Source of the DNA: Candidatus Methylomirabilota bacterium
GTDB taxonomy: Bacteria > Methylomirabilota > Methylomirabilia > Rokubacteriales > CSP1-6
NCBI GenBank assembly: GCA_036002485.1
Contig: DASYTI010000028.1
Coordinates: 1 to 46,850 of the forward strand
DNA length: 46,850 bases
Reading direction: 5' to 3'
A model generated the notes under the pieces. The model did no database searches. It saw nothing but the letters and a program-made list of their open reading frames with translations, and was not told the origin of the DNA. A program made the translations under genes and the position numbers. Below, in pieces: positions 3,140-36,656 of the stretch; positions within the stretch are counted from its first letter, which is position 1; each line of letters starts with the position of its first letter.

Positions 3140-4396
3140 TCACGAGGCGGACGACATCTCGCTGCCCGCGCGGTAGTGGGTCGCGTAGGCCCGCCGGCAT
3201 TGCTCGCGCAGCGCGGTCTCGTCGGGCTCCCGCCCCGCGAAGCGCGCGGTGGAGATCTCGGAGAGATCGAGCGACGGCGCGCCGTCGAGGATCCACTCGG
3301 CCATCGCCTCGCCGAGGGAAGGGGAGACGCTGAGGCCACCCACGCAGCAGCCGCTCATCACCCAGGCGCCCGCCACCCCAGGCAGCGGCCCCGCGAGGTA
3401 TCGGTCGTCCACCGTGAGGGTGGGCAGCCCGCCGCGGTGCTCGGCCACGCGGATCGCGGGGTCCTGGAAGATCGGGAACTGCTCGCTGACGCTGCGCGCG
3501 AGCCGCCACAGCACCTCGATGTCGAGCGGCAGCTCGGCGATGTCGAAGGACGGGGGGAGCGCGGCGACGTCGACCTGCAGCGGATCGGGCTCATAGCCGC
3601 CCAGCATGAGCCCGCCGCGCTCGTGGCGCACGTAGACGTTGGCGTCGATCACGCGGGCGATCGGGAACTCGGGCCCGACTCCAGGAATGGGCTCGGTGAT
3701 CAGGAGCTGATGGCGCGTCGGCACCACAGGCAGCGATCCGCCGAGCCTGGCGGCGACGAGTCGCGCCCAGCCGCCGGCGGCGTCCACGACCGTGTGTGTT
3801 CCGATCGTCCCCTGCAGCGTCCGGACGCCTTCCACGCCGCCCGCGCCGATCTCGAAGCCCGTGGCGGGCGTGTGCGGGAGCAGCACGGCTCCGAGCTTTT
3901 CCGCCGCCCGGCAATAGCCGATGGGCAGCTCGGACGGCTCGACGTTGCAGTCTGTCGGGCTCCACGTGATGGCCACGATGCCGCGCTCGCCGAGGATGGG
4001 CAGCCGCCGTCGCGCCTCGGCGATGGAGACGAAGTCGATCTCGACGCCGACGGCGGCGCCGCGGGCCACCTCACGGGAGAGCTGCTCGGCGTCGCCCTCC
4101 GTGCGCGCGATCTTCAGCGCGCCGCTCTGGGTGAAGCGGAGCGGCTGGCCGGTCTCCTCGGTGAAGGCCGCGAGCTTCGTCACCGCGCGCTGGGCGAGCC
4201 GGGTGAGGGCCGGGGTCGCGCGGACCTGGCTCGAGAGCCCCGCCGCGCGCGGCGATGTCTGCGAGGCGAGGGCGAAACGCTCGAGCACCGCCACGCGGGC
4301 GCCACGCCGCGCCAGGTGGTACGCCGCGCTCGCGCCGAAGGCGCCGGAGCCGATGACGACGACGTCCGCCGAGGCGAGCACGGGCTTGTCCGTCAC
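3140..4396 (-). CDS. FAD-dependent oxidoreductase, DAO family (sarcosine/glycine oxidase-like)
   Basis: 418 residues. The N-terminal dinucleotide fold is VVVIGSGAFGASAAYHLARR (GxGxxG) followed by an acidic strand end (VLER). The C-terminal part has the family pattern of a second FAD contact, GAWVMSGCCVGGLSVSPSLG. Members oxidise secondary or tertiary amines and D-amino acids with FAD in the cytoplasm; the substrate is not evident. The start is GTG at 4396, which overlaps the TGA of the upstream Mo-subunit gene (GTGA), so the two are probably translationally coupled. Direct linkage to a PLP enzyme homologue suggests amine or amino-acid chemistry (inference). Confidence 0.9.
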   Translation of the reverse strand: MTDKPVLASADVVVIGSGAFGASAAYHLARRGARVAVLERFALASQTSPRAAGLSSQVRATPALTRLAQRAVTKLAAFTEETGQPLRFTQSGALKIARTEGDAEQLSREVARGAAVGVEIDFVSIAEARRRLPILGERGIVAITWSPTDCNVEPSELPIGYCRAAEKLGAVLLPHTPATGFEIGAGGVEGVRTLQGTIGTHTVVDAAGGWARLVAARLGGSLPVVPTRHQLLITEPIPGVGPEFPIARVIDANVYVRHERGGLMLGGYEPDPLQVDVAALPPSFDIAELPLDIEVLWRLARSVSEQFPIFQDPAIRVAEHRGGLPTLTVDDRYLAGPLPGVAGAWVMSGCCVGGLSVSPSLGEAMAEWILDGAPSLDLSEISTARFAGREPDETALREQCRRAYATHYRAGSEMSSAS

Positions 4397-6666
4397 CGTC
4401 CGGAGAGGGCGGCCTTGACCCGATCGGGCCGGAACGGCACGGTGCGGAGCCGCACGCCCGTCGCGTCGAACACGGCATTGCCGAGCGCGGCGGGCACCGG
4501 CGTCGACGCCGCCTCGCCGACGCCGAGCGGCGGCTGGTCCAGCCGCTGGATCAATTCGAACTCGAGGGCCGGAACCTCCGGAAAGGTCAGGATCGGGTAC
4601 GAGGCCCAGTCAACCGTGGTGACGCGGTCGCCATCGTAGACGACCTCTTCGTGGAGGGTGCGGGAGAGGGTCTGGATGATATTGCCCTCGACCTGGCTCT
4701 GCACGCAGTCCGGGTTGATCATGAGCCCGCAGTCCTGGGCGCATACCACTCGCGTCACCCGGATGCGGCCGGTGGCCCGTTCGACCGCCACCTCCATGCC
4801 CATGGCCACCAGCGTCTCCTCGTGCTTGTAGTGGATGTAGGCGATGCCGCGGCCCCTGAGCACGGCCGCCTTCGGGTCGGCGGGGCGTGGCGACGGCCGA
4901 GGCCGCCAGCCCATGCGCGCGGCCACCCGGCGCAGCACCTCGACCCCGCGCGGGTTGGTGAGGCGGCGCAGGCGGAACTCGACGGGATCGACGCGCGCGA
5001 GAGCCGCGATCTCATCCACGAACGACTCCAGGGCGAAGGTGTTGGCGACCTTCCCGGGCGCGCGAAACGCGGAGGTGCGAAGCGCAGCGTCGGGAATCCA
5101 GTGCACGACGGCGTTGACGTTCGGGAGCGTGTAGGGCGGGTCCACGTTCTGGTAGATCAGCCCGGTGGATCGTCCCTGCGTCTGCGGGATTCCCGCCGCA
5201 TCCAGGGCCAGCAGCGGAATATTGGGCAGGTCGGCGGTGGCGATGGGGAGCCACGCCTGCGTCTCCCATGCCGCCACCCCGCCCTCGGCATCGACGGCGG
5301 CCCGCAGCTCGAGAAGCTGAGCGGGACCCTTCGGGTCCAGACCGTGCTCCTCTTGCCGGCTCCACTGCACGCGGACCGGGCGGCCCAGCGTCTTCGAGAG
5401 CAGCGCCGCCTCCGCAGCCGCGTCGTCGGCGCCGTTGGGGCCGTAGGAGCCCGCGCCGTCAAGATAGATCACGCGCACGCGATCCCGCTCGAGCCCGAGG
5501 AAGCGGGCGCACGTGTCCTGGAACCCGTGGGTGCTCTGGGACGAGCTCCAGACGGTGGCGCGATCGGCCCGCACGTCGGCCACGCCACAGGAGGGCCCGA
5601 TGGAGCCATGGGTCTGCATGGGCCAGCGGTACGAGGCCGCGAGGCTCCGCATCCCGGGGGCCGGCGCGCTCAGCGCCGAGAGATCGCCCCGCTTGGCGAT
5701 CTCCTGGTCGCGGACCACGCGGCTCGCCCGCATCGACTCGAACTCCCTGGTGTAGTCGGGCAGCCCCGTGCCGGCCGTCCACTTCGTGTGGAGCGCGCGA
5801 GCCGCTCGCACCGCCTCCCACTCCCGCTCGGCCACGACGGCGAGAAAGCTCTGGAGCCGCACGACGCGGGCGCCGCCCATCCCGGCGATGGGCGACTCAT
5901 CCACCGACACGAGGGTGGCGCCCAGCGCGGGCGGCCGGATCACGCGGGCGTGGAGCATGCCCGGCAGCGTCAGATCGTGCAGATAGCGGTGATGACCCGT
6001 CACCTTCGCCGGGATGTCGGGGCGGGGGAGGGGCTTGCCGATGAACCGGAAGCTCTGCGGCGCTTTCAGGGGCGCTCGGCCGTCGACCTTCAAGTTGAAC
6101 GCGCGATCGCCGATCAGCTCTCCGTAGGTGACCGACGCGCCCCCGTCCTTCGCGCGCACGACGCCATCGACCACCTGGAGGTCGCCGGCCGGCCGTCCGA
6201 GACGCTGGGCCGCCTGGGCGAGGAGGGCCTGGCGCGCCGTGGCCGCCGCCCGGCGGAGCTGAGTGCCGCCGCGGGCGATGCCGTAGCTGCCGGCGGTGGC
6301 GCCCTGATTGGGGGTGAGCGCGGTATCGCCCTCGATCATCGCGATGCGCTCGAGGGGGACGTCGAGCTCCTCGCCGGCGAGCTGGCGCATGGCGATGCGC
6401 CCGCCCGTCCCGATGTCCACCTTGCCGACGAAGATGGTCACGGACCCGTCGGCGTGCACGGCCAGGAACGAATCGACGGCGTCCGGAGCCAGGGGCTTGC
6501 CGAGGATGCGATCGGCGCCCGGCAGCGTCTGGCCTGCCGCCCGCGCGAGGCCGTCGAGCCCGAGGCCGACGATCAGGACCCCGCCCGCGACGAGGAAGCT
6601 CCGCCGCGAGATGCTCCCGGCTTTCCTTTCAGCTTCGCCTCGCGCGCGGCGACTGCGCGGGGCCAT
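4393..6666 (-). CDS. Molybdopterin-binding subunit, isoquinoline 1-oxidoreductase beta (IorB)-like, Tat-exported
   Basis: 757 residues. The N-terminus has a twin-arginine signal, SRRSFLVAGGVLIVGLGLDG, typical of periplasmic IorB-type enzymes. Later segments are diagnostic for xanthine-oxidase-family Mo subunits: GGRIAMRQLAGEEL, YGIARGGTQL, SQSTHGFQD, SAFRAPGKVANTFALESF and the catalytic Glu in LGVGEAASTPVP. Such enzymes hydroxylate an aromatic heterocycle or aldehyde with water as oxygen source. One base separates it from the Fe-S subunit upstream. No FAD subunit (CoxM type) is adjacent, as expected for two-subunit IorAB enzymes that pass electrons to a cytochrome. The substrate is unknown. 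Confidence 0.92.
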   Translation of the reverse strand: MAPRSRRARGEAERKAGSISRRSFLVAGGVLIVGLGLDGLARAAGQTLPGADRILGKPLAPDAVDSFLAVHADGSVTIFVGKVDIGTGGRIAMRQLAGEELDVPLERIAMIEGDTALTPNQGATAGSYGIARGGTQLRRAAATARQALLAQAAQRLGRPAGDLQVVDGVVRAKDGGASVTYGELIGDRAFNLKVDGRAPLKAPQSFRFIGKPLPRPDIPAKVTGHHRYLHDLTLPGMLHARVIRPPALGATLVSVDESPIAGMGGARVVRLQSFLAVVAEREWEAVRAARALHTKWTAGTGLPDYTREFESMRASRVVRDQEIAKRGDLSALSAPAPGMRSLAASYRWPMQTHGSIGPSCGVADVRADRATVWSSSQSTHGFQDTCARFLGLERDRVRVIYLDGAGSYGPNGADDAAAEAALLSKTLGRPVRVQWSRQEEHGLDPKGPAQLLELRAAVDAEGGVAAWETQAWLPIATADLPNIPLLALDAAGIPQTQGRSTGLIYQNVDPPYTLPNVNAVVHWIPDAALRTSAFRAPGKVANTFALESFVDEIAALARVDPVEFRLRRLTNPRGVEVLRRVAARMGWRPRPSPRPADPKAAVLRGRGIAYIHYKHEETLVAMGMEVAVERATGRIRVTRVVCAQDCGLMINPDCVQSQVEGNIIQTLSRTLHEEVVYDGDRVTTVDWASYPILTFPEVPALEFELIQRLDQPPLGVGEAASTPVPAALGNAVFDATGVRLRTVPFRPDRVKAALSGR

Positions 6667-9003: not shown

Positions 9004-10029
9004 TCATCGCGGGCTCCCGACGGCGGCCGCGACCTCCCTCATGAAGCGCCGCATGAACCCGCTCACGTCCGGCACGAAGGCCGTGATGACGAACTGGCGG
9101 GCGCCCGCGGCCATGGCGCGGCGAATCTGCGCCACGCAGTCATCGGGGGTACCGGCGATGCCGAAGCGATCCCGCAAGAACTCCGTCAGGCCCCAGCGCT
9201 CCGTCAGGTCGGCATTGACGGCGCCGGCGATCTCGTGCTGATGGGCATCGTATTCCCGCTGGAGCCCCCGGATGCGCTCGTGAAGGTCGGGCGGTAATGC
9301 CTTGCCCTCGAGCGTGAAGCGGAAGGCGTGGTTGGCGCTCGCGGCCAGGGCCATCCTGATGGGCGCCACCGCGGCCTCGCGCGTATCGGCCACATTGGTC
9401 TTGGCGAACCACCATATGTCGAGGTCCTCGAGCGTCCGCCCGGCCGCGCGCGCGCCCCGCTCGATGGCGGCGAGCGACACGCTGATGACCTCGGGGGTGA
9501 GGCCCAGTCCCACGATCACGCCGTCGGCCACGCGCCCGGCCAGCTCGAGCGTTCGGGGCCCTTCGGCGGCGAGGTACACGGGCACCCGGCGCGTGGACCG
9601 CCGCACCTGCCATTTTCGACCGGTGTGCTCGACGACGACCCCGCTCGTGAGCTGCCCGAGCGTGACCACGGCGTCTTGGAGACCCGCCACCGTGGAGGGC
9701 GGCGCCCCGAGCGTATAGATCGCGCTGTCCCCGGAGCCGAGTCCGAGGATGGCGCGGCCACCCGAGAGCTCGTCGATGCTCGAGATGGCACTCGCGGTGA
9801 CGACCAGGTGGCGGGTCTGTGGATTGGTGACGAGCGGCCCCAGCCGAATGCGCGACGTCTCGCGGGCGGCCACCGCGAGGGCGACGTAGAGCTCGCGGAA
9901 CACCGACTGCGAGTCGGCCACGCCAAGGAGGTCGAACCCAGCCTCCTCCGCTTCGCGGCAGAGCCTCCCGAAGTCGCCGAGCGACTCCGGGAGAAACACG
10001 ATGCCGAATCGCGCGCGGTTGCTCGTCAC
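9004..10029 (-). CDS. LLM-class flavin-dependent monooxygenase/oxidoreductase
   Basis: 341 residues from a GTG start at 10029. The luciferase-like TIM barrel is shown by FGIVFLPESLGDF, RIRLGPLVTNPQTRH, SIDELSGGRAILGLGSGDS and a C-terminal GTPDDCVAQIRRAMAAGARQ. Members bind FMN or F420 and act on varied small molecules; GLGSGDS near residue 100 is typical of the F420/FMN phosphate region. Two other LLM proteins lie in the window (15514-16449 and 19438-20592), but they are not close copies. It ends 132 bp before the downstream Gfo/Idh/MocA start, separated only by the tandem repeat. Confidence 0.9.
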   Translation of the reverse strand: MTSNRARFGIVFLPESLGDFGRLCREAEEAGFDLLGVADSQSVFRELYVALAVAARETSRIRLGPLVTNPQTRHLVVTASAISSIDELSGGRAILGLGSGDSAIYTLGAPPSTVAGLQDAVVTLGQLTSGVVVEHTGRKWQVRRSTRRVPVYLAAEGPRTLELAGRVADGVIVGLGLTPEVISVSLAAIERGARAAGRTLEDLDIWWFAKTNVADTREAAVAPIRMALAASANHAFRFTLEGKALPPDLHERIRGLQREYDAHQHEIAGAVNADLTERWGLTEFLRDRFGIAGTPDDCVAQIRRAMAAGARQFVITAFVPDVSGFMRRFMREVAAAVGSPR

Positions 10030-14091: not shown

Positions 14092-14640
14092 TCAGGAGGC
14101 GGCGGCCTTGGTGGCCTTCAGGACCTCTTCGGCGTCGAGCAGATCGAGGGGGTTGTCCATGACCTTGATGAACTTCACGGTCCCCGTCTTGTCGATGATG
14201 AAGTAGGCTCGTCTCGCGTAGCGGTAGACCGGGCTCTTCTCGTCGGTCTGCATGGCGCCGTAGGCGGGGAGCATCTGACGCCGGAAGTCCGAGAGGAGAA
14301 GCTGCTTGCTGCCCTGATCCTTCTGCCACGCGGCGAGGGCGAGGTGATGATCGGTGCTGATGCCCACGACCTGGGCACCCAGGGCTTCGAACTGCGGCAG
14401 CGCCGCCTCGAAGCCCCTGAGCTCTTTCGTTCAGGTGGGGGTGAACGCCGCGATGAAGGTGTAGAGGACGACGGGACCCTTGGCCGTCAGGTCGGACAGC
14501 TTGACGGGCTTGCCGTCGATGCCGTTCAGCGCGAAGTCGGGCGCCTTCTGTCCGACCTCGAGGGCGCCCGCGCTACCGACGAGGGCGACGCTGATCAGGG
14601 CCGCGGCGACGATGCTCCGGAGCAGCAGGGATGTTCGCAT
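14092..14640 (-). CDS. Secreted peroxiredoxin-like protein, probable selenoprotein (in-frame TGA at codon 70)
   Basis: 182 residues if TGA at 14433-14431 is read as selenocysteine. ATG at 14640 has TTGGAGGTCCC before it. A Sec signal (RSIVAAALISVALVGSAGA) is followed by a redoxin fold: VGQKAPDFALNGIDGKPVKL, GPVVLYTFIAAFTPT, stop, TKELRGFEAALPQFEALGAQ, VVGIST, YARRAYFIIDKTGTV. In BCP/PrxQ the peroxidatic cysteine lies in TPGCTKE; here the text is TPT-TGA-TKE. The frame is intact on both sides for 69 and 112 codons, and the protein has no cysteine elsewhere. A stem-loop at 14380-14419 begins 11 nt past the TGA. If it were a pseudogene, this would be its only lesion. Role: reduction of peroxides in the periplasm (family inference). 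Confidence 0.8.
14380..14419 (-). promoter_or_regulatory. Candidate bacterial SECIS stem-loop
   Basis: On the transcribed strand CAGGGGCTTCGA pairs with TCGAAGCCCTG with one bulged G, and inside it GCGGC pairs with GCCGC around a GCT loop. It begins 11 nt after the TGA, and the loop lies 29 nt after it, within the spacing known for SelB-dependent elements; a G at the start of the loop is also usual. GC-rich coding DNA can form stems by chance, so this supports rather than proves recoding. Confidence 0.6.
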
Positions 14641-14737
14641 GGGACCTCCAATTGGGCGGATGTTGTTGAGCCAGTAACCCCGACGATGACCTTTCGGTTC
14701 CATCGAATCGCGCCCCGGCCTTCGCCTTCGCGGGCTC

Positions 14738-15517
14738 CTAGCCCTTGAACCAGTCGCGCAGTGGCTTCACGACCGCGCCAGCCTTGACGAGGCCGTCCCG
14801 GACGGCGGCCACGATCTTTTCCGCCCCCGGGCTGTCGCCATGTATGCAGATCGTGTCCACCTTGGCCGTGATGGTCTTGCCGGTGATGGTCGTCACCTTC
14901 TGCTCCATGGCCATCCGGACCGCCTGATCCGCCGCCTTCGACGGATCGCTGACCAGGGCGTCCTTGCCGAGTTTGCGGCTGACGAGCTGGCCGTCGTCGG
15001 CATAGACGCGGTCGGCGAACCCCTCGGCGGCCACCCGCGCCTTGGTCTTGCGCGCCTCCGCGTCGTACTTGGTCATGGCCATGACCATGAGGATCAAGCT
15101 CGGGTCGAGCTCGGCGACCTGCTCAGCCGAGGCGCGACCCAACTCGAGATTGTCCTCGAACATGTGGTACTGGATGCCGTGAGCCTTGACGTGCTGGAGG
15201 GTGGAGCCGGCGGCCTTGACGAAAGCCCAGAGCGCGCCCACCTGATAGCGATGGATGTCCTTGATTTCCTGGGGGCTCACGTCCATGCGCCGCCGGCCGA
15301 AGCCCATGAGGTCGGGCAGGCCGGGATGCGCGCCGATGGCCACGCCGTGCGTGAGGGCCAGCTCCACGCTCTTGCGCATCACGTGCGGGTCGCCGCCATG
15401 GAAGCCGCAGGCGACGTTGGCCGACGTGATGTGCGGCATGACGTCCTCGTCGCGCCCCAGGGTCCAACGGCCGTAGCTCTCTCCCATGTCGCAGTTGATG
15501 TCGATGTAGATGCTCAT
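14738..15517 (-). CDS. pxpA: LamB/YcsF family protein, 5-oxoprolinase subunit A-like
   Basis: 259 residues from ATG at 15517, which overlaps the stop of the LLM gene as ATGA. The N-terminus IDINCDMGESYGRW, SANVACGFHGGDPHVM, GVAIGAHPGLPDLMGFGRR and ICIHGDSPGA are the standard motifs of PxpA. In characterised bacteria PxpA works with PxpB and PxpC to open 5-oxoproline with ATP. No PxpB or PxpC gene is in the window, and the gene is joined to an LLM enzyme and a CoA-transferase instead. It may therefore use partners encoded elsewhere or act on another lactam (inference). Family call firm, reaction less so. Confidence 0.88.
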   Translation of the reverse strand: MSIYIDINCDMGESYGRWTLGRDEDVMPHITSANVACGFHGGDPHVMRKSVELALTHGVAIGAHPGLPDLMGFGRRRMDVSPQEIKDIHRYQVGALWAFVKAAGSTLQHVKAHGIQYHMFEDNLELGRASAEQVAELDPSLILMVMAMTKYDAEARKTKARVAAEGFADRVYADDGQLVSRKLGKDALVSDPSKAADQAVRMAMEQKVTTITGKTITAKVDTICIHGDSPGAEKIVAAVRDGLVKAGAVVKPLRDWFKG

Positions 15518-16449
15518 AGCTTTGCCATGACCTCCTTGGCGATTCGCTCCACCTGCGCCGGCTGGTAGCGGTACGGGATCAGGATAATCCGATTCACGCC
15601 CGTTTTCACGTGGGCCCGCAGCTGCTCGATGCACTGCTCGGCCGAGCCGTGGATGGCGTGCTCGATGGTAGACTCGCTCCAGGCCGCCGTATCCCACTCG
15701 GTGGACAGCCACTGGCGCATGTCCGTCTCGGTCTCCTCGCGGTTCCTGCCGACGTAGATGGCCAGCTGGTTCGTCGCGCTGAGGGCGGCGGGATCGCGGC
15801 CGGCCTCCCTGGCGAAGGCGCGGATCTTCTCCCAGGACTTGGTGAAGCTCTCCGGGGTGTAGAAGTAGGTCAGCCAGCCGTCGCCCACCGTGGCCACGCG
15901 CTTGAGCACGGCGTCGACATAGCCGCCGATCAGCACGGGCGGGCGGGGGCGCTGGGCCGTACGCGGCACCATGACGGCATCGCGCAGGTTGAACTCGTCG
16001 ACCTTGATGGTGACGCGCTCTTCCGTCCAGAGCCGGAGGAGGATGTCGAGATTGCGCTCGAAAATGCGCCCGCGCTGCTTGAAGGGCACGCCCACCGCGT
16101 CGAACTCTCGGGCGTACCATCCGGCGGCCACGCCCAGGATGAGCCGGCCGCTCGAGATCACGTCCAGGCTGCCCAGGGCCTTGGCGGCGACCACGGGATT
16201 GCGGAGGGGGAGCACGAGCACGCCCGTGCCGAGCTTGATCTTGCTGGTCCGCGCGGCCACGGCGGCCAGCGTGGTGATCGAGTCGATGATGGGGAACGAG
16301 GGCTCGACGCCCAGGAGGATGTGGTCCCAGGCCCAGAGCGACTCGAAGCCGAGGGCCTCGGCGCGCTCCGCGTAGGCGTACAGGCTCGTGACGTCGGGTA
16401 CCTCGCCGGGGCCGACGAAATTGCGGATGGCCAGACCGAACTGGGTCAC
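15514..16449 (-). CDS. LLM-class F420- or FMN-dependent oxidoreductase
   Basis: 311 residues from GTG at 16449 (VTQFGLAIRNF). The frame is open further upstream, but that part is translation of the CCCTCTCCCC palindrome (text HPALSPEGRG) and is not coding. Luciferase-like features: LGFESLWAWDHIL, IKLGTGVLVLPLRNPVV, SLDVISSGRLILGVAAGWYA, and a C-terminal SAEQCIEQLRAHVKTGVNRI. The pattern GxxxGW after the beta strand is common in F420-dependent members. It lies between CoA-transferase subunit B and PxpA in one minus-strand operon. The substrate is unknown. Confidence 0.9.
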   Translation of the reverse strand: MTQFGLAIRNFVGPGEVPDVTSLYAYAERAEALGFESLWAWDHILLGVEPSFPIIDSITTLAAVAARTSKIKLGTGVLVLPLRNPVVAAKALGSLDVISSGRLILGVAAGWYAREFDAVGVPFKQRGRIFERNLDILLRLWTEERVTIKVDEFNLRDAVMVPRTAQRPRPPVLIGGYVDAVLKRVATVGDGWLTYFYTPESFTKSWEKIRAFAREAGRDPAALSATNQLAIYVGRNREETETDMRQWLSTEWDTAAWSESTIEHAIHGSAEQCIEQLRAHVKTGVNRIILIPYRYQPAQVERIAKEVMAKL

Positions 16450-16462
16450 GGGGATCCTTCGT

Positions 16463-16503
16463 ATCCCTCTCCCCTCAGGGGAGAGGGCAGGGTGAGGGGT
16501 GGG
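16463..16503. repeat. CCCTCTCCCC-type palindromic intergenic repeat, copy 1
   Basis: CCCTCTCCCC-TCA-GGGGAGAGGG at 16465-16487 is a perfect inverted repeat, followed by CAGGGTGAGGGG. It fills the space between the CoA-transferase B stop (16505) and the LLM start (16449) in a minus-strand operon. This repeat type is widespread in high-GC bacterial genomes. Three further copies lie at 34201, 34281 and 36624. Confidence 0.9.
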
Positions 16504-16504
16504 T

Positions 16505-17281
16505 TCATAGAAACTGCCGCGCGGGATCGAGCATGCGCAGGATACCAAGCTCCTCGTCGGTTGGCGGCTTGGTCGTAGTCAGCGTGTCGGACACGAGCAC
16601 GTCGAAGCCCGTGCTGGCGCGGACCGTGTCGACGGAGACGCCAGGGTGCAGGGCCTCGAGGCGCATCCGCCGGCTCCCGGGCTCGAAGCCGAAGACGCCG
16701 AGGGTGGTCACCACGCGCGAGACGCCCCCGAAGAGCAGGCCGCTCTTGCGGCGGCTGTCGCCCCCGTCCAGCCAGCCGGGGCTCGTGATGAAATCCACGG
16801 TGTCCGAGAAGCGCCGCTTCTCGTGCACGGTGAGAATGATGACCTCGCGGCAGAGCGAGATGATGTCATTGGCACCGCCGCTGCCGGGGAGCCGGACCTT
16901 GGGCCGCTCGTAGCTGCCCCCGATGGCGCTCGTGTTGAGATTGCCGTAGCGGTCGATCTGGGCGCCGCCGATGAAGCCCACGTCGAGAAACCCCCGCTGG
17001 GCGAGCAGGAAGGCGTCCGTGATGCCGGGCAACATCTGGGCATGGTAAGCCGCGCGCATCTCATTGGTCGAGATGGGCAGCGAGCCCGGCTTCCATCTGG
17101 GCCCGATGATGCCGCCCTCCACCATCATGGTCAGGCCCGGCGCATGGGTGCGCTGGGCGAGCGCGGAAGCCATCAAGGGGGCGCCCACGCCCGCGAAGAC
17201 CGTCATGTTGTCCTTGAGCTCGCGCGCGCCCATCACGGCCAGGAGCTCGTTGGGCGTCACGCCGCTCCCGCCCGCGCTCAC
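16505..17281 (-). CDS. CoA-transferase family I, subunit B
   Basis: 258 residues from a GTG at 17281 overlapping the TGA of subunit A (GTGA); another GTG at 17260 is possible. The catalytic glutamate region is visible as TMMVEGGIIGPRWKPGSLP, and the fold continues with GFIGGAQIDRYGNLNTS and RLPGSGGANDIIS, as in glutaconate and 3-oxoacid CoA-transferase beta chains and in IpdB-like proteins. The complex moves CoA between carboxylic acids, or in IpdAB-like members opens a ring. It is paired with the subunit A gene upstream. Which acid is handled is not readable. Confidence 0.9.
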   Translation of the reverse strand: MSAGGSGVTPNELLAVMGARELKDNMTVFAGVGAPLMASALAQRTHAPGLTMMVEGGIIGPRWKPGSLPISTNEMRAAYHAQMLPGITDAFLLAQRGFLDVGFIGGAQIDRYGNLNTSAIGGSYERPKVRLPGSGGANDIISLCREVIILTVHEKRRFSDTVDFITSPGWLDGGDSRRKSGLLFGGVSRVVTTLGVFGFEPGSRRMRLEALHPGVSVDTVRASTGFDVLVSDTLTTTKPPTDEELGILRMLDPARQFL

Positions 17282-19437: not shown

Positions 19438-20592
19438 ATGAAGGTCGGCACCGCGCTGAACATGCTGAGCAAGGAGGGGCACTCGGACGCGGCCGTGCTC
19501 GCCGAGCACATGGCCCTCGGCGATCTGGCCGAGCCGCTCGGCTTCGACTCGCTCTTCGCCCTCGAGCACCACTTCACCGGGTATGCCATGTCGCCGTCGC
19601 CCACCCAGCTCCTCAGCTACTACGCGGGCCGCACGCGCCGGATCACCCTGGGCACCGCCGTCATTGTCCTGCCCTGGCACGATCCCGTACGCGTGGCCGA
19701 AGAGATCGCCCTGCTCGACGTGCTGTCGGGCGGGCGTTGCCTGTTCGGCTTTGGCCGCGGAGCGGCCAGCGCGGAGTACTCGGGCTTCCGCATTCCCATG
19801 GAGGAGGCCCGCGCCCGGTTCGTGGAGGCGGCCCGGATCGTGGTCAAGGCGCTCACCGAGCCGTCGTTCGACTGGGACGGCGAGTTCTTCAAGATCCCGC
19901 GGACGTCCATTCGCCCGCGCCCGATCTCTCATCCCGAGCGACGCTTCTACGCCTCGTCGGTGAGCCCGGAATCGGCGGAGATCATGGCCAAGCTCGGGTT
20001 CGGGGTGCTCGTGGTCATGCAGAACGAATGGCCGAAGGCCGCCCAGGACATCCAGCGTTATCGCGACACCGCCACGAGCGTGGGCCACCCCCCGCGGCCC
20101 CCCATCATCCTCATGAATATCTCCGTGGCGGAGAGCCGTCCGGAGGCGCAGGAGCGGGCGAAGACGTATCTCAGCCGCAAGTGGGACTCGATCGACAACC
20201 ACTACCACTTCTCCGACGGGCACCTCGCGTCCGTGAAGGGGTACGAGTTCTACGGCAACATGGCCAAGACGTACAGCAAGATGAAGGACGAGGGCTACCG
20301 CAAGAAGGCCACGGACTTCTACGTCAAGATCCAGGTTGTGGGCACGCCCGACGACTGTCTCCAGCAGCTCGCCGAGCTGCACCGCCTCACCGGCCTCGAC
20401 CATCTCGTGACGGAGTTCGGCTACGGGGGCATGCCGCACGAAGAGGCGGAGCTGAACATGCGGCTGTTCGCCGAGCGCGTGATGCCCGTGCTCCAGCGCG
20501 ACCGCGCCTTCTCGAGCGGGCCGGCGGGGACGGGGGAGGGAGTAGCGGGATCGCTCGTGACCGGCGCGGACGACGTGTTCGCGCCGGCTTGA
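19438..20592 (+). CDS. LLM-class flavin-dependent oxidoreductase, bacterial-luciferase-like
   Basis: 384 residues from ATG at 19438, with GGGGAGGAGGACGCC before it. Family features: GFDSLFALEHHFTGYAMSPS (the EHHF motif of luciferase-alpha-like enzymes), RITLGTAVIVLPWHDPVRVA, LDVLSGGRCLFGFGRGAA, and VGTPDDCLQQLAELHRLTG. Members are FMN-dependent monooxygenases. It is divergent from the cysteine-synthase-like operon (151-bp gap) and followed by a regulator gene 229 bp on. The last 30 residues are of low complexity and probably flexible. The substrate is unknown. Confidence 0.92.
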   Translation: MKVGTALNMLSKEGHSDAAVLAEHMALGDLAEPLGFDSLFALEHHFTGYAMSPSPTQLLSYYAGRTRRITLGTAVIVLPWHDPVRVAEEIALLDVLSGGRCLFGFGRGAASAEYSGFRIPMEEARARFVEAARIVVKALTEPSFDWDGEFFKIPRTSIRPRPISHPERRFYASSVSPESAEIMAKLGFGVLVVMQNEWPKAAQDIQRYRDTATSVGHPPRPPIILMNISVAESRPEAQERAKTYLSRKWDSIDNHYHFSDGHLASVKGYEFYGNMAKTYSKMKDEGYRKKATDFYVKIQVVGTPDDCLQQLAELHRLTGLDHLVTEFGYGGMPHEEAELNMRLFAERVMPVLQRDRAFSSGPAGTGEGVAGSLVTGADDVFAPA

Positions 20593-24338: not shown

Positions 24339-24555
24339 GGGTACTGGGCCAAGTTGCGAGCCACATTTACTCAGCCCTCGCCTCGGGCTTCGCCCTCAGC
24401 TCGAAGAGCCACGCCCGAGGGAGCCGGCAACGCGAGGCGTACGTGGGTGTACGTTGAGCGTTGCTGGCGACCGAGAACGTGGCCGTTCGAGCTGAGCGGC
24501 CCTGCCGCGAGGCGAAAGCTGAGTTGACCTGGCGAAGCAAATTGGCCCAGTACCC
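24339..24555. mobile_element. 217-bp fold-back (MITE-like) element
   Basis: The outer 14 bp, GGGTACTGGGCCAA and TTGGCCCAGTACCC, are perfect inverted repeats. Further in, both arms carry the blocks ACTCAGC, TCGCCTCG, CTCAGCTCGAA and GCCACG in the same order, and they meet near 24447, so the whole element can fold into one long imperfect hairpin. It encodes no protein. It fills most of the 335-bp space before the CoxL-like gene. No flanking target duplication is obvious. Confidence 0.7.
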
Positions 24556-24601
24556 GCGCGCTGGACAGGTGTGCGGGCTGTTGATATGGTCGGGCGGTTC
24601 C

Positions 24602-26947
24602 ATGGGCGCGAAACTCTTCGGGGCCTCCGTTCGCCGGAAAGAAGACCCTCGCTTCCTCCGCGGTGAAGGCCGCTATGTGGATGACATCAAGCTGCCCGGG
24701 ATGCTCCACGCGGCCTTTGTGCGGAGCCCGCACGGCCACGCCAGAATCGTTTCCGTGAAGACGGACGCGGCGCGCCGGATGCCCGGGGTGGCGCATGCCT
24801 TCGCCTTCGCCGACCTCGAGCGGTGGATGAAGCCGCTGCCTCTCTTCGGCGCCGTCCCCCCCGGTCTCGCCGCGCGTGTCAATGTCACCATGAAGCAGGT
24901 GCCGCAACTGGCCATGGCGCGCGATCGCGTGTTCTTCGTGGGCGAGATCGTGGCCATGGTCCTGGCCACGAGCCGTGCCCTGGCCGAAGACGCCGGTGAG
25001 GCGATCGAGGTCGGGTACGAGCCGCTGCCCGCCGTCGTCGACATGGTGGCGGCGGCCGAGCCCGGCTCGCCGGTGCTCCACGGCGAGTGGGGCGACAATG
25101 TCGCGATTCACTTCGCCACCGGCTTCGGCGATGCCGACGCCGCCTTCCGCGCGGCTGACGTCACCGTGCGCGAGCGCTTTCACATACAGCGCTATGTCGG
25201 CATGCCCATCGAGACACGCGGGGTAGCCGCGCAGTGGGATGTGCGCGACGGCACCTTGACCACGTGGAATGGCACTCAGGTGGTCCACTTCGTCCAGCAA
25301 GGACTGGTGGCCGCCCTCGGGCTGCCCCCCCACAAGATCCGCGTCATCGCGCCGGACGTGGGCGGAGGCTTCGGCACCAAGGCCACGGGTTACCCGGAAG
25401 ACTTGCTCATCCCCGCCGCGGCCATCGCCGCGCGTCGCCCCGTCAAGTGGGTCGAGGACCGCCGCGAGCACATGATGGCGGCCGCGCACGCGCGTGACCA
25501 GATCCACGAGATCGAGATCGCCGCGCGGCGCGACGGGACCATGCTGGCCGTGCGCGACCGGATCTGGGTCGATCTCGGCGCCTACAATTCGTGGGGTATC
25601 GTCCTGCCCTACAACACCGTCGCCCACCTCCTGGGACCTCACCGCGTGCCGAGCTTGCGCGTCGAATGCCGAGGCGTCGTCACCAACAAGACGCCGAATG
25701 CTCCCTATCGCGGCGCGGGCCGCCCCGAGACCGTCTTCGCCATGGATCGCATCGTGGATTGCCTCGCCAGAGAGCTGCGCATGGATCCCGCCGAGCTGAG
25801 GCGGAAGAACTACCTGAGCGAAGCCGATATGCCCTATGAGCTCGGCATCCCGTATCGCGACGGCAACCGGCTGGTTTATGACAGCGGCGATTTCAAGGCG
25901 GCGCTCGACTCGGCGCTCTCGACCATCGGCTATGACGCGCTCAGAAGAGGGCAGGCGGAGCTCAGGGCCAGAGGGGTTCACCGCGGCATCGGCATCTCGG
26001 GCTATGTCGAAGGGACGGCCATCGGTCCCTATGAGGGGGCCGTGGTCAGGCTCGATCCCTCGGGGCGCGCCGTGGTCGCCACGGGCGCCTGCAGTCAGGG
26101 GCAGGGGCACGAGACCTCATTCGCGCAGATCGCGGCGGACGCGCTCGGCATTCCGCTCGACTGGGTGACCGTGGTGGGCGGCGATACGGCGGCCATTCCG
26201 TTCGGGGTCGGTACCTTCGCGTCGCGGAGCGCGGTGAATGCCGGCAGCTCCATCCACGTGGCGGCCGGCAAGGTGAGAGACAAGATCGCCCAGGCGGCGG
26301 CCGCCCTCCTCGAGGCGGCGCCCGCCGACATCGAGGTCAACGACGGCACCGTGTCGGTGCGGGGCGCGCCTGGCTCCTCGGTGCCGCTCGCGCGCGTCAT
26401 CCAGTCGACCATCCCGACTTTCGCCAAGGCCGGCTCCCTCTCGCCGGACTTCGAGGCCACGGTCTATCACCATCAGCCGACAGTGACGTATACGAGTGCA
26501 GTGCATATCGCTCTCGTCGAGGTGGATGCCGGCACGGGGTCGGTCCGGCTCCTGCGCTACCTCGTGTCCCACGACTGCGGCAAGGTCATCAATCCCGTCA
26601 TCGTGGAAGGGCAGATCCACGGCGGCGTCGCCCAGGGCATCGGGGGCGCGCTGCTCGAGGAGATGGTCTATGACGAGCAGGGCCAGCTCCTCACCGGCAC
26701 TTTCATGGACTACCTCGTCCCCACGGCCATGGAGGTGCCGCCCATCGAGACCGTGCATCTCGAATACCCGTCGCCGCGCAACCCTCTGGGCATCAAGGGG
26801 ATAGGCGAAGGCGGGGCCATCTCGCCTCCCGCCGCCATCGGCAATGCCGTCGAAGACGCCCTCGCCCCCTGGAATGTCCGTGTCACGCGCACGCCTCTCG
26901 GCCCCTCCGTGGTACTCGACCTCATCCGCCGGGCGAAGAAATCGTGA
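24602..26947 (+). CDS. Molybdopterin-binding large subunit, CoxL form II-like
   Basis: 781 residues from ATG at 24602. The start fits the conserved KLFGASVRRKEDPRFLRGEG. Signature text: PDVGGGFGTK, NAPYRGAGRPETVFAMDR (the AYRGAGR motif marks form II CoxL proteins rather than true CO dehydrogenase, which has AYRCSFR), SQGQGHETSFAQIA and the catalytic Glu in IKGIGEGGAISPP. The enzyme hydroxylates an unknown substrate with a Mo cofactor, FAD and two Fe-S clusters. It is followed by the M and S subunits through GTGA and ATGA overlaps, so all three should be made together. The fold-back element lies just upstream and may hold or disturb its promoter. Confidence 0.93.
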   Translation: MGAKLFGASVRRKEDPRFLRGEGRYVDDIKLPGMLHAAFVRSPHGHARIVSVKTDAARRMPGVAHAFAFADLERWMKPLPLFGAVPPGLAARVNVTMKQVPQLAMARDRVFFVGEIVAMVLATSRALAEDAGEAIEVGYEPLPAVVDMVAAAEPGSPVLHGEWGDNVAIHFATGFGDADAAFRAADVTVRERFHIQRYVGMPIETRGVAAQWDVRDGTLTTWNGTQVVHFVQQGLVAALGLPPHKIRVIAPDVGGGFGTKATGYPEDLLIPAAAIAARRPVKWVEDRREHMMAAAHARDQIHEIEIAARRDGTMLAVRDRIWVDLGAYNSWGIVLPYNTVAHLLGPHRVPSLRVECRGVVTNKTPNAPYRGAGRPETVFAMDRIVDCLARELRMDPAELRRKNYLSEADMPYELGIPYRDGNRLVYDSGDFKAALDSALSTIGYDALRRGQAELRARGVHRGIGISGYVEGTAIGPYEGAVVRLDPSGRAVVATGACSQGQGHETSFAQIAADALGIPLDWVTVVGGDTAAIPFGVGTFASRSAVNAGSSIHVAAGKVRDKIAQAAAALLEAAPADIEVNDGTVSVRGAPGSSVPLARVIQSTIPTFAKAGSLSPDFEATVYHHQPTVTYTSAVHIALVEVDAGTGSVRLLRYLVSHDCGKVINPVIVEGQIHGGVAQGIGGALLEEMVYDEQGQLLTGTFMDYLVPTAMEVPPIETVHLEYPSPRNPLGIKGIGEGGAISPPAAIGNAVEDALAPWNVRVTRTPLGPSVVLDLIRRAKKS

Positions 26948-34328: not shown

Positions 34329-36656
34329 ATGGCCTATCGCGTGATCGGCAGGTCCCCGCCTCGAGCGGACGCCTGGGAGAAGGTGCGGGGCCGCCCCATC
34401 TATGCCGGCGATCTCGCGATGGCCGGCATGCTCCACGGCAAGATCGTCCGCAGCCCGTATCCCTCGGCGCGCATCGTCAAGATCGACACCAGCGAAGCCC
34501 GGGCCCTGCCGGGCGTCGTCGCCGTGCTCACTCACGCCGAGGTGCCGCAGAACGCGCTTCGCATGGAATTGCCCGGGCGCATGGCCGAGGCGACGGCGGG
34601 AGCTGTGCTGGCGACCCAGCCGGTGCTGGCCGAGGATCGCGTGCGCTTCCAGGGCGAGCCCGTCGCGGCCATCGCGGCGGAGACTCCGGAGATCGCCGCC
34701 GAGGCCGCCGAGCGGGTTCGGGTCGAGTACGAGCCGCTCCCGGGCGTCTATGATCCGGCGGAAGCGCTGAAGCCCGGCGCCCCCCACGTCCACGAGGGCG
34801 GCAATCTCCTGCGGGCCTGGCATATCCGCAAGGGCGATGCCACGGAGGCCCTCGCGCGCGCGGACGTCATCGTGGAGAAGACCTACCGAACCCCGTTCGT
34901 GGATCACGTGTACCTCGAGACGGAGACGGGGATCGGCTGGATCGACGCCGAGGGCACCCTGGTCCTCCGCGTGAGCACCCAGGTGCTGGAGCATTTCCGC
35001 GACGTGGCCGAAGTCCTGCGGCTGCCCCACGGGAAGGTGCGGCTCGAGGGCGCCTATCTGGGCGGCGGCTTCGGCGGCAAGGAGGACGTGACGGTCGAGT
35101 GCCTGCTCGGCCTCCTCGTGTGGAAGACGCGGCGGCCCGTGCAGCTCGTCTTCTCGAGGGAAGAGAGCTTCATCGGCCACGGCAAGCGTCATCCGTATCT
35201 CCTGCGCTACAAGTCCGGGGCCACGAGGACGGGCGAGCTGGTGGCCATGGAGGTCGAGCTCGTCTCGGACTCGGGCGCCTACGCCGCGCTCTCGCCCTGG
35301 GTGCTCCTGTACAGCCTGGTGACGGCGACGGGGCCGTACCGGGTGCCTCACGTCAAGGTGGACGCCTTCACCGTCTACACCAACAATCCGGTGGCCAGCG
35401 CCTACCGCACCTTCGGGTCCATCCAGACCTGCATCGGCTATGAGGGACAGATGGACGCCCTGGCCGCCGCGCTCTCCATGGATCCGCTCGAGCTCCGCGA
35501 GAAGAACTTCCTGAGGAAGGGCGACAGGATCGCCACGGGGCAGGTGCTCGAGAGCGAGCCCATGCTGGGCGAAACCATGCGGCGCGCCTGGCAGGCCCTG
35601 GGCCCCCCGCGCGAGGGCGACGGGCCCGTTCGCGTGGCCCGAGGCCTCGCCGCCTCGTTCACGCCGTATGGGCGCATGTGCTGGACGCGCGACTCCGCCT
35701 CCGCCTGGGTGGGCATGGAGCTCGACGGCTCCGCCGTGGTCCGCTGCGCCGCCCCCGATGTGGGCGGGGGACAGACCTCCTCCCTCTGCTCGATCACCGC
35801 GGAAGTCCTGGGCCTGCCCGTAGAGCATGTCGCGGCCGTCGGGCGGGACAGCCACTTCACCCCGCGGGCCGGCACGACGACGGCCACGCGCCAGCTCTTC
35901 ATGTCCGGAAACGCGGTGCTCAAGGCCGCGCACGAGGTACGCCGGCATCTTGTGGATCAGGCCGCGGAGATGCTGGAAGCCGCGCGGGAAGACATCGAGC
36001 TCACGGAGGGACGGGCTCTCGTCCGGGGCGCGCCGGATCGCGCCATCGACTTCTCCGCGCTGGTCAAGGCCGCCACGGCGGCGGGGCGCCCCGTCCAGGC
36101 CCTCGACAAGTACGATGCGCCGTCGGCGCCGACGATTGATCCCATTACCGGGCAGGGCAAGCCCTTCAACGACTACACCTTCGGCACTCAGGCCGTCGAG
36201 GTCGAGGTGGACGAGGAGACGGGCCAGACTCGCGTGACGAAGCTGGCCGCCTGCTATGACGTGGGTCAGGCCATCAATCGCCAGAGCGCCGAGGGCCAGA
36301 TCGAAGGCGGCGCCGTGCAGGGCCTGGGCCACGCCCTCCTCGAAGAAGTCGTGCTCGAGGACGGCGTGTCCAAGAACCCTCATCTTCTCGACTACAAGAT
36401 TCCCACCACCCTCGACGCGCCCGAGATCATCACGATCCTGCTCGAGTCGGGACAGGGCCTCGGGCCCTTCGGCGCCAAGGGCATCGGGGAGCCCGCCATG
36501 ACCCCGACGCCGGCCGCGGTGATGAACGCCGTCACGCGCGCCGCCCGCGCCCCCCTGACCCGCTTCCCCCTCACCGCCGAACGCGTCCTCGCGGCTCTCA
36601 AGAGCCAATCAGCTTCGAAAAATCCCTCTCCCCCATCGGGGGAGAGGGCAGGGTGA
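34329..36656 (+). CDS. Molybdopterin-binding large subunit of a second xanthine-dehydrogenase-family enzyme
   Basis: 775 residues from ATG at 34329. Family text: PRADAWEKVRGRPIYAGDLA, LGGGFGGKEDVTVECLLGLL, SAYRTFGSIQTC (AYRGFG-like), PDVGGGQTSSLCSITAEVLG, and the catalytic Glu in AKGIGEPAMTPTP. It is only distantly like the other two Mo subunits here. The last 13 codons (KNPSPPSGERAG, then stop) are read from repeat copy 4, so the repeat supplies the present C-terminus and stop codon. No usual ribosome site is visible because the inverted repeats come right up to the start. The Fe-S and FAD subunits follow. Confidence 0.92.
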   Translation: MAYRVIGRSPPRADAWEKVRGRPIYAGDLAMAGMLHGKIVRSPYPSARIVKIDTSEARALPGVVAVLTHAEVPQNALRMELPGRMAEATAGAVLATQPVLAEDRVRFQGEPVAAIAAETPEIAAEAAERVRVEYEPLPGVYDPAEALKPGAPHVHEGGNLLRAWHIRKGDATEALARADVIVEKTYRTPFVDHVYLETETGIGWIDAEGTLVLRVSTQVLEHFRDVAEVLRLPHGKVRLEGAYLGGGFGGKEDVTVECLLGLLVWKTRRPVQLVFSREESFIGHGKRHPYLLRYKSGATRTGELVAMEVELVSDSGAYAALSPWVLLYSLVTATGPYRVPHVKVDAFTVYTNNPVASAYRTFGSIQTCIGYEGQMDALAAALSMDPLELREKNFLRKGDRIATGQVLESEPMLGETMRRAWQALGPPREGDGPVRVARGLAASFTPYGRMCWTRDSASAWVGMELDGSAVVRCAAPDVGGGQTSSLCSITAEVLGLPVEHVAAVGRDSHFTPRAGTTTATRQLFMSGNAVLKAAHEVRRHLVDQAAEMLEAAREDIELTEGRALVRGAPDRAIDFSALVKAATAAGRPVQALDKYDAPSAPTIDPITGQGKPFNDYTFGTQAVEVEVDEETGQTRVTKLAACYDVGQAINRQSAEGQIEGGAVQGLGHALLEEVVLEDGVSKNPHLLDYKIPTTLDAPEIITILLESGQGLGPFGAKGIGEPAMTPTPAAVMNAVTRAARAPLTRFPLTAERVLAALKSQSASKNPSPPSGERAG

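Follow-up and report, generated by a model that had tools for sequence, protein, structure and literature searches.

A probable selenocysteine-containing, cysteine-free peroxiredoxin encoded by a TGA-interrupted gene of a Rokuibacteriota genome

Does a peroxiredoxin (Prx) gene with TGA in place of its active-site Cys codon encode a selenoprotein, or is it simply broken? The question is raised by a minus-strand locus in a 46,850-nucleotide stretch of DNA (the window), which is contig C28 of a draft genome of 4.45 Mb in 253 contigs (95.7% complete); the nearest named records to this genome are Rokuibacteriota MAGs at 67–93% identity. The first-pass annotation, made from the letters alone, had proposed a single frame interrupted only by this codon, and translation bore it out: the frame from 14640 to 14092 (starting MRTSLLLRS, continuing through YTFIAAFTPT*TKELRGF and ending AAAS*) has 182 codons before its stop, and its only internal stop is the TGA at codon 70 (14433-14431). 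The TPT and TKEL flanks and the total absence of Cys, also claimed there, were likewise found in the translated product. A mechanical gene call broke the gene exactly as had been foreseen, into pieces at 14703-14431 and 14367-14092, both of which have coding-type GC3, and the match to the Pfam AhpC-TSA domain (PF00578) spans the TGA with 111 bits against a cut-off of 26. Because a standard gene call splits the gene in this way, a complete redox enzyme would go unannotated in a soil lineage that is both widespread and uncultured. Positions of the features are collected in Table 1.

The locus is, with high confidence, one intact AhpC/TSA gene of the PrxQ-like type, the product of which is probably exported and carries selenocysteine (Sec) decoded from UGA at codon 70; the protein is predicted to be a peroxidase depending on an external reductant. 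The selenoprotein reading rests on the conservation of the TGA, the Cys found at this position in distant homologues, the purifying selection beyond the TGA, a covarying hairpin and the presence of selA, selB and selC in nearly all relatives, and the proposal of the first-pass annotation, a probable selenoprotein with Sec at the peroxidatic position, is thereby supported.

Table 1. Features of the window copy and related loci
Feature	Position or locus	Strand	Remarks
Predicted Sec-peroxiredoxin CDS	14092..14640	-	182 residues, Sec at position 70, stop TGA at 14094-14092
TGA read as Sec, peroxidatic position (TPTU TKEL)	14431..14433	-	30-gene alignment; aligns with Cys in homologues
Shine-Dalgarno-like GGAGG	14645..14649	-	Upstream of ATG 14640; sequence
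Probable N-terminal signal peptide	14563..14640	-	Hydrophobic segment ending at about VGSAGA/LEVG, cleavage site a guess; sequence and predicted helix 3-19
Putative bacterial SECIS hairpin	14382..14416	-	15 bp, 2-nt bulge, loop GCU at 14401-14399, 29 nt from UGA to loop
selD with Sec-TGA (AGUASK)	L024, C51:43396-44334		
selD fused to NADH-dehydrogenase-like domain, without TGA	L025, C54:11480-12397		
Prx + TlpA-like UxxC pair loci	L154 (source contig C40, 13000-17000), L005		
Prx + TlpA-like UxxC pair loci in relatives	L067, L069-L083, L115, L133-L135		

Conservation of the TGA and selection beyond it

The alignment of homologues at codon 70 comprised 30 Rokuibacteriota Prx genes, the window gene included, with relatives 52–93% identical to it, and mixed orthologues with paralogues, several genomes (the source genome among them) having two copies. 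All 30 carried TGA in the identical column and no Cys elsewhere. The family is spread over most of the order, as judged from the 60 relatives searched, and nearly all close matches had exactly one TGA. In contrast, Cys occupied the codon-70 column in L132, L086, L088 and L089, as well as in PrxQ of other Methylomirabilota families, and the TGA also aligned with the Cys of the PrxQ structures 2cx3 (Aeropyrum) and 2ywn. L132 (G035:C79) is a 49% identical paralogue, and its placement inside the Sec clade of the tree suggests a Sec-to-Cys change. The first-pass annotation had considered that relatives might show further disabling mutations and no Cys/Sec alternation; this turned out not to be so, since Cys forms exist and the aligned genes, coming from many genera and independent assemblies, contained no other internal stop.

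Across the 30 genes, dN/dS was 0.39 before the TGA and 0.35 after it, so the downstream part is evidently translated and useful. A pseudogene or a sequencing error, with the TGA as a nonsense codon that disables the gene, would explain the in-frame stop and would agree with SelA, SelB and tRNA-Sec not having been found in the source assembly, but it is scarcely credible against the same TGA recurring in every aligned gene, purifying selection beyond it, copies free of any other stop and a remaining protein devoid of Cys; the conservation of the TGA rules it out. A changed genetic code was also rejected. TGA is the usual stop of the window genes (27 of the 36 called), and the one at codon 70 is thus a site-specific recoding event.

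The putative SECIS hairpin and the Sec machinery

Between codons +9 and +20, synonymous divergence among the 30 genes was only 0.26, against about 0.48 in the remaining gene, a sign that the RNA itself is under an additional constraint there. The dip coincides with the putative hairpin, which also forms at this place when the genes are folded individually. In the gap-free alignment of the 30 genes, its 15-bp helix was paired in 91.8% of cells, whereas slid controls gave 33–51%. Both sides of a pair had changed in 17 cells, spread over five pairs, against 5.7 expected by shuffling, and the covariation score was reached by none of 500 shuffles. Moreover, the hairpin was more stable than synonymous recodings of its peptide (mean MFE z of -2.25), while at seven other positions in the gene the excess was about zero. 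Bacterial SECIS elements are described as having a loop of 3–9 nt with G in its first two positions, an upper stem of 4–16 bp, a spacing of 16–37 nt and an MFE of at most -7.5 (PMC13188914). The window hairpin falls within this model, with a 3-nt loop (GCU, G first), a 29-nt spacing and an MFE of -27.2 kcal/mol. The loop mark itself is not conserved, G being present in the first two loop positions in only 8 of the 30 genes, the window copy among them; a subset of bacterial SECIS elements deviates from the model (PMC13188914). In the proposed mechanism, SelB and tRNA-Sec would decode the UGA as selenocysteine, directed by the hairpin lying 15–49 nt downstream.

Reading of the UGA by some other route (as Trp or Cys, by near-cognate readthrough or through a changed code) has nothing specific in its favor and is extremely improbable given the use of TGA as the main stop, the homologues with Cys rather than Trp at codon 70, the hairpin at the SECIS position and the Sec machinery in nearly all relatives.

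This machinery was only partly found in the source genome. The first-pass annotation had proposed a search for selA, selB, selC and selD, naming the absence of selB/selC from a complete genome as an argument against a selenoprotein. selD was found twice in the draft, once with a TGA of its own (AGUASK) and once without TGA as a fusion with an NADH-dehydrogenase-like domain, while selA, selB and tRNA-Sec (selC) were not found in this 95.7%-complete assembly. The best SelB match, on contig C222, proved to be translation factor IF-2, and ARAGORN identified the eight top-scoring tRNA-Sec matches as ordinary tRNAs for Leu, Trp, Ser, Arg and Gly; none of these was accepted as part of the Sec machinery. 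The absence thus holds for the draft, but not for most relatives, where matches above the cut-off were obtained for SelB in 54 of 60, for SelA in 38 of 40 and for tRNA-Sec in 35 of 40. In the same-genus genomes G001 and G002, selA, selB and selC lie together on one contig. Source contig C193, syntenic with the flank of this cluster in both, matches the G001 DNA from its own position 84 on; the match starts about 2.3 kb past selC and lacks the sel side. Because C193 breaks off so close to the cluster site, the missing genes are most simply explained by one assembly gap, and this is the likeliest reading, although a contig break is in itself no proof that the genes are present.

The same gap bears on another possibility, namely that Sec decoding has been lost in the source species and the window copy is a relic, even though its relatives use Sec. 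The missing selA, selB and selC would fit such a loss. It is nevertheless very unlikely, as the closest genome (G004, with a Prx 92–93% identical) has all three genes, C193 begins just short of the cluster, and the source genome retains intact both its Sec-type selD and seven more AhpC/TSA-fold genes with a TGA. Furthermore, between the window copy and that of G004 the part after the TGA differs by 7 nonsynonymous changes in 257 sites compared with 22 synonymous ones in 76 sites.

Among the 18 AhpC/TSA-domain matches of the source genome, 8 contained exactly one TGA, and on reading them all, the TGA was at the active-site Cys position in 8 of 8. The further genes of this fold with such a TGA include L001 (TPGUSKC), L004 (RWUPYC), L008 (TWUPSC), L150 (YWUPKC), L151 (SWUGC) and L152 (FGUYNC). 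Deng et al. (2026), as cited in PMC13188914, reported 63 predicted selenoproteins in a MAG of the Methylomirabilota; in so far as that citation describes it, this MAG belongs to the same phylum in GTDB usage and resembles the source genome in its many redox selenoproteins.

Protein family, fold and active site

The AlphaFold model of the protein (pLDDT 89.6) has a peroxiredoxin fold, nearest to that of archaeal PrxQ/Bcp, with Bcp4, Aeropyrum PrxQ and Sulfolobus PrxQ as the best PDB matches and 1-Cys AhpE also near. Position 70 (Cys or Sec) and R144 were invariant among the aligned homologues, and T67 nearly so. The classical PxxxTxxC motif is incomplete, with Ile for Pro at -7 and Thr retained at -3; as the PF00578 score and the fold hold, it is only the strict motif that fails. 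Assignment to the AhpC/TSA peroxiredoxins is thus given by the curated cut-off score, the fold, the TxxC/U motif and the conserved Arg. More narrowly defined NCBIfam models scored under their cut-offs, PrxU (NF040737) with 44.6 of 270 bits and BCP (NF006960) with 58.1 of 140 bits. The N-terminus resembles a signal peptide, both in sequence and in the predicted helix, so the protein is probably exported.

TxxU peroxiredoxins are an established selenoprotein family (PMC13188914, PMC2398784), exemplified by the Sec-containing Prx of Eubacterium acidaminophilum (PMC13188914). The window protein has in common with them the AhpC/TSA domain, a predicted Sec for the peroxidatic Cys and a UGA followed by a putative downstream SECIS; it differs in lying below the PrxU cut-off, in being probably exported and in being Cys-free. 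The nearest solved structures by both sequence and fold are PrxQ/BCP proteins (Aeropyrum pernix PrxQ, 2cx3 and 4gqf; Sulfolobus Bcp4, 3hjp), which share the active-site Thr, Cys/Sec and Arg, but here Sec would replace Cys, no other Cys occurs and a signal-like sequence precedes the domain. Like the 1-Cys peroxiredoxins, which it matches in fold (Mycobacterium tuberculosis AhpE, Sulfolobus 1-Cys Prx), the protein would rely on one peroxidatic chalcogen and on reduction by an external donor; the difference is that this chalcogen would be Sec and that most relatives have a likely dedicated Sec-containing TlpA-like partner.

The selenol of Sec would sit at the N-terminus of the first long helix, within the TxxU motif and together with the conserved Arg (144), and is expected to reduce hydroperoxides, being itself converted to the selenenic acid. 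Since the protein has neither Cys nor a second Sec, it could not resolve this form by itself (a "1-Sec" Prx) and would need an external thiol or selenol. We infer that Sec is actually inserted and that the enzyme works as an exported peroxidase, in line with the "secreted one-selenol peroxidase" that the first-pass annotation had in mind. The Cys-free design, with Sec as the only chalcogen redox residue, offers an uncluttered setting in which to study why selenium is retained.

Gene neighborhood and the TlpA-like selenoprotein

The window copy is flanked upstream by a PxpA/LamB_YcsF gene and on its other side by a converging dienelactone-hydrolase-like gene; genes of the luciferase-like and CoA-transferase types are also near. 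No functional clue was found in these neighbors, and the gene order is conserved only in the closest genome. The window contains three luciferase-like monooxygenase genes (9004-10029, 15514-16548 and 19438-20592) and several for molybdopterin-binding dehydrogenases (4393-6666, 24461-26947 and 34329-36656). Ten further window frames of at least 180 codons with a single TGA were listed.

A different arrangement prevails elsewhere. In 23 locus entries, which include one with a Cys Prx and one sequence counted twice (L069/L117), the Prx gene is directly followed on the same strand by a TlpA-like gene with TGA at the first CxxC position (typically W-U-P-x-C), the homology to TlpA starting about 25–90 nt after the Prx end. 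The second Prx copy of the source genome, on contig C40, is followed by such a UxxC gene as well. The pair of Cys-free Sec Prx and UxxC TlpA-like protein has been kept across many Rokuibacteriota genera, whereas the window copy stands alone within the flanks examined, as do eight close relatives; the mechanical gene call of the window found no TlpA-like gene.

Judging from this gene neighborhood, the most likely reductant of the Prx would be the apparently exported UxxC TlpA-like selenoprotein encoded just downstream of most related genes. The two may form an extracytoplasmic peroxide-reducing relay of Rokuibacteriota, in which electrons pass from selenium to selenium between the products of adjacent genes, the stand-alone window copy being served by the same partner; we put this forward tentatively and give it somewhat less than even weight. 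The conserved pair suggests a specific and directly testable electron donor. Adjacent selenoprotein genes such as Prx/SelW have been reported (PMC13188914, PMC2398784), and a limited literature search found no mention of a Prx-TlpA selenoprotein pair. Sec peroxiredoxins of the TxxU type and selenoprotein-rich Methylomirabilota are already known; the Prx-TlpA gene pair is modestly new.

Two variations of the arrangement were seen. At L132/L155 (G035:C79), the Prx has Cys, yet the downstream TlpA-like partner retains its TGA, so that only one member of the pair seems to have gone from Sec to Cys. In a more distant group of Cys-free Sec Prx (TPTUT; L084, L136-L138), the Prx gene is closely preceded, in the same orientation, by a TlpA-like gene of the ordinary CxxC type.
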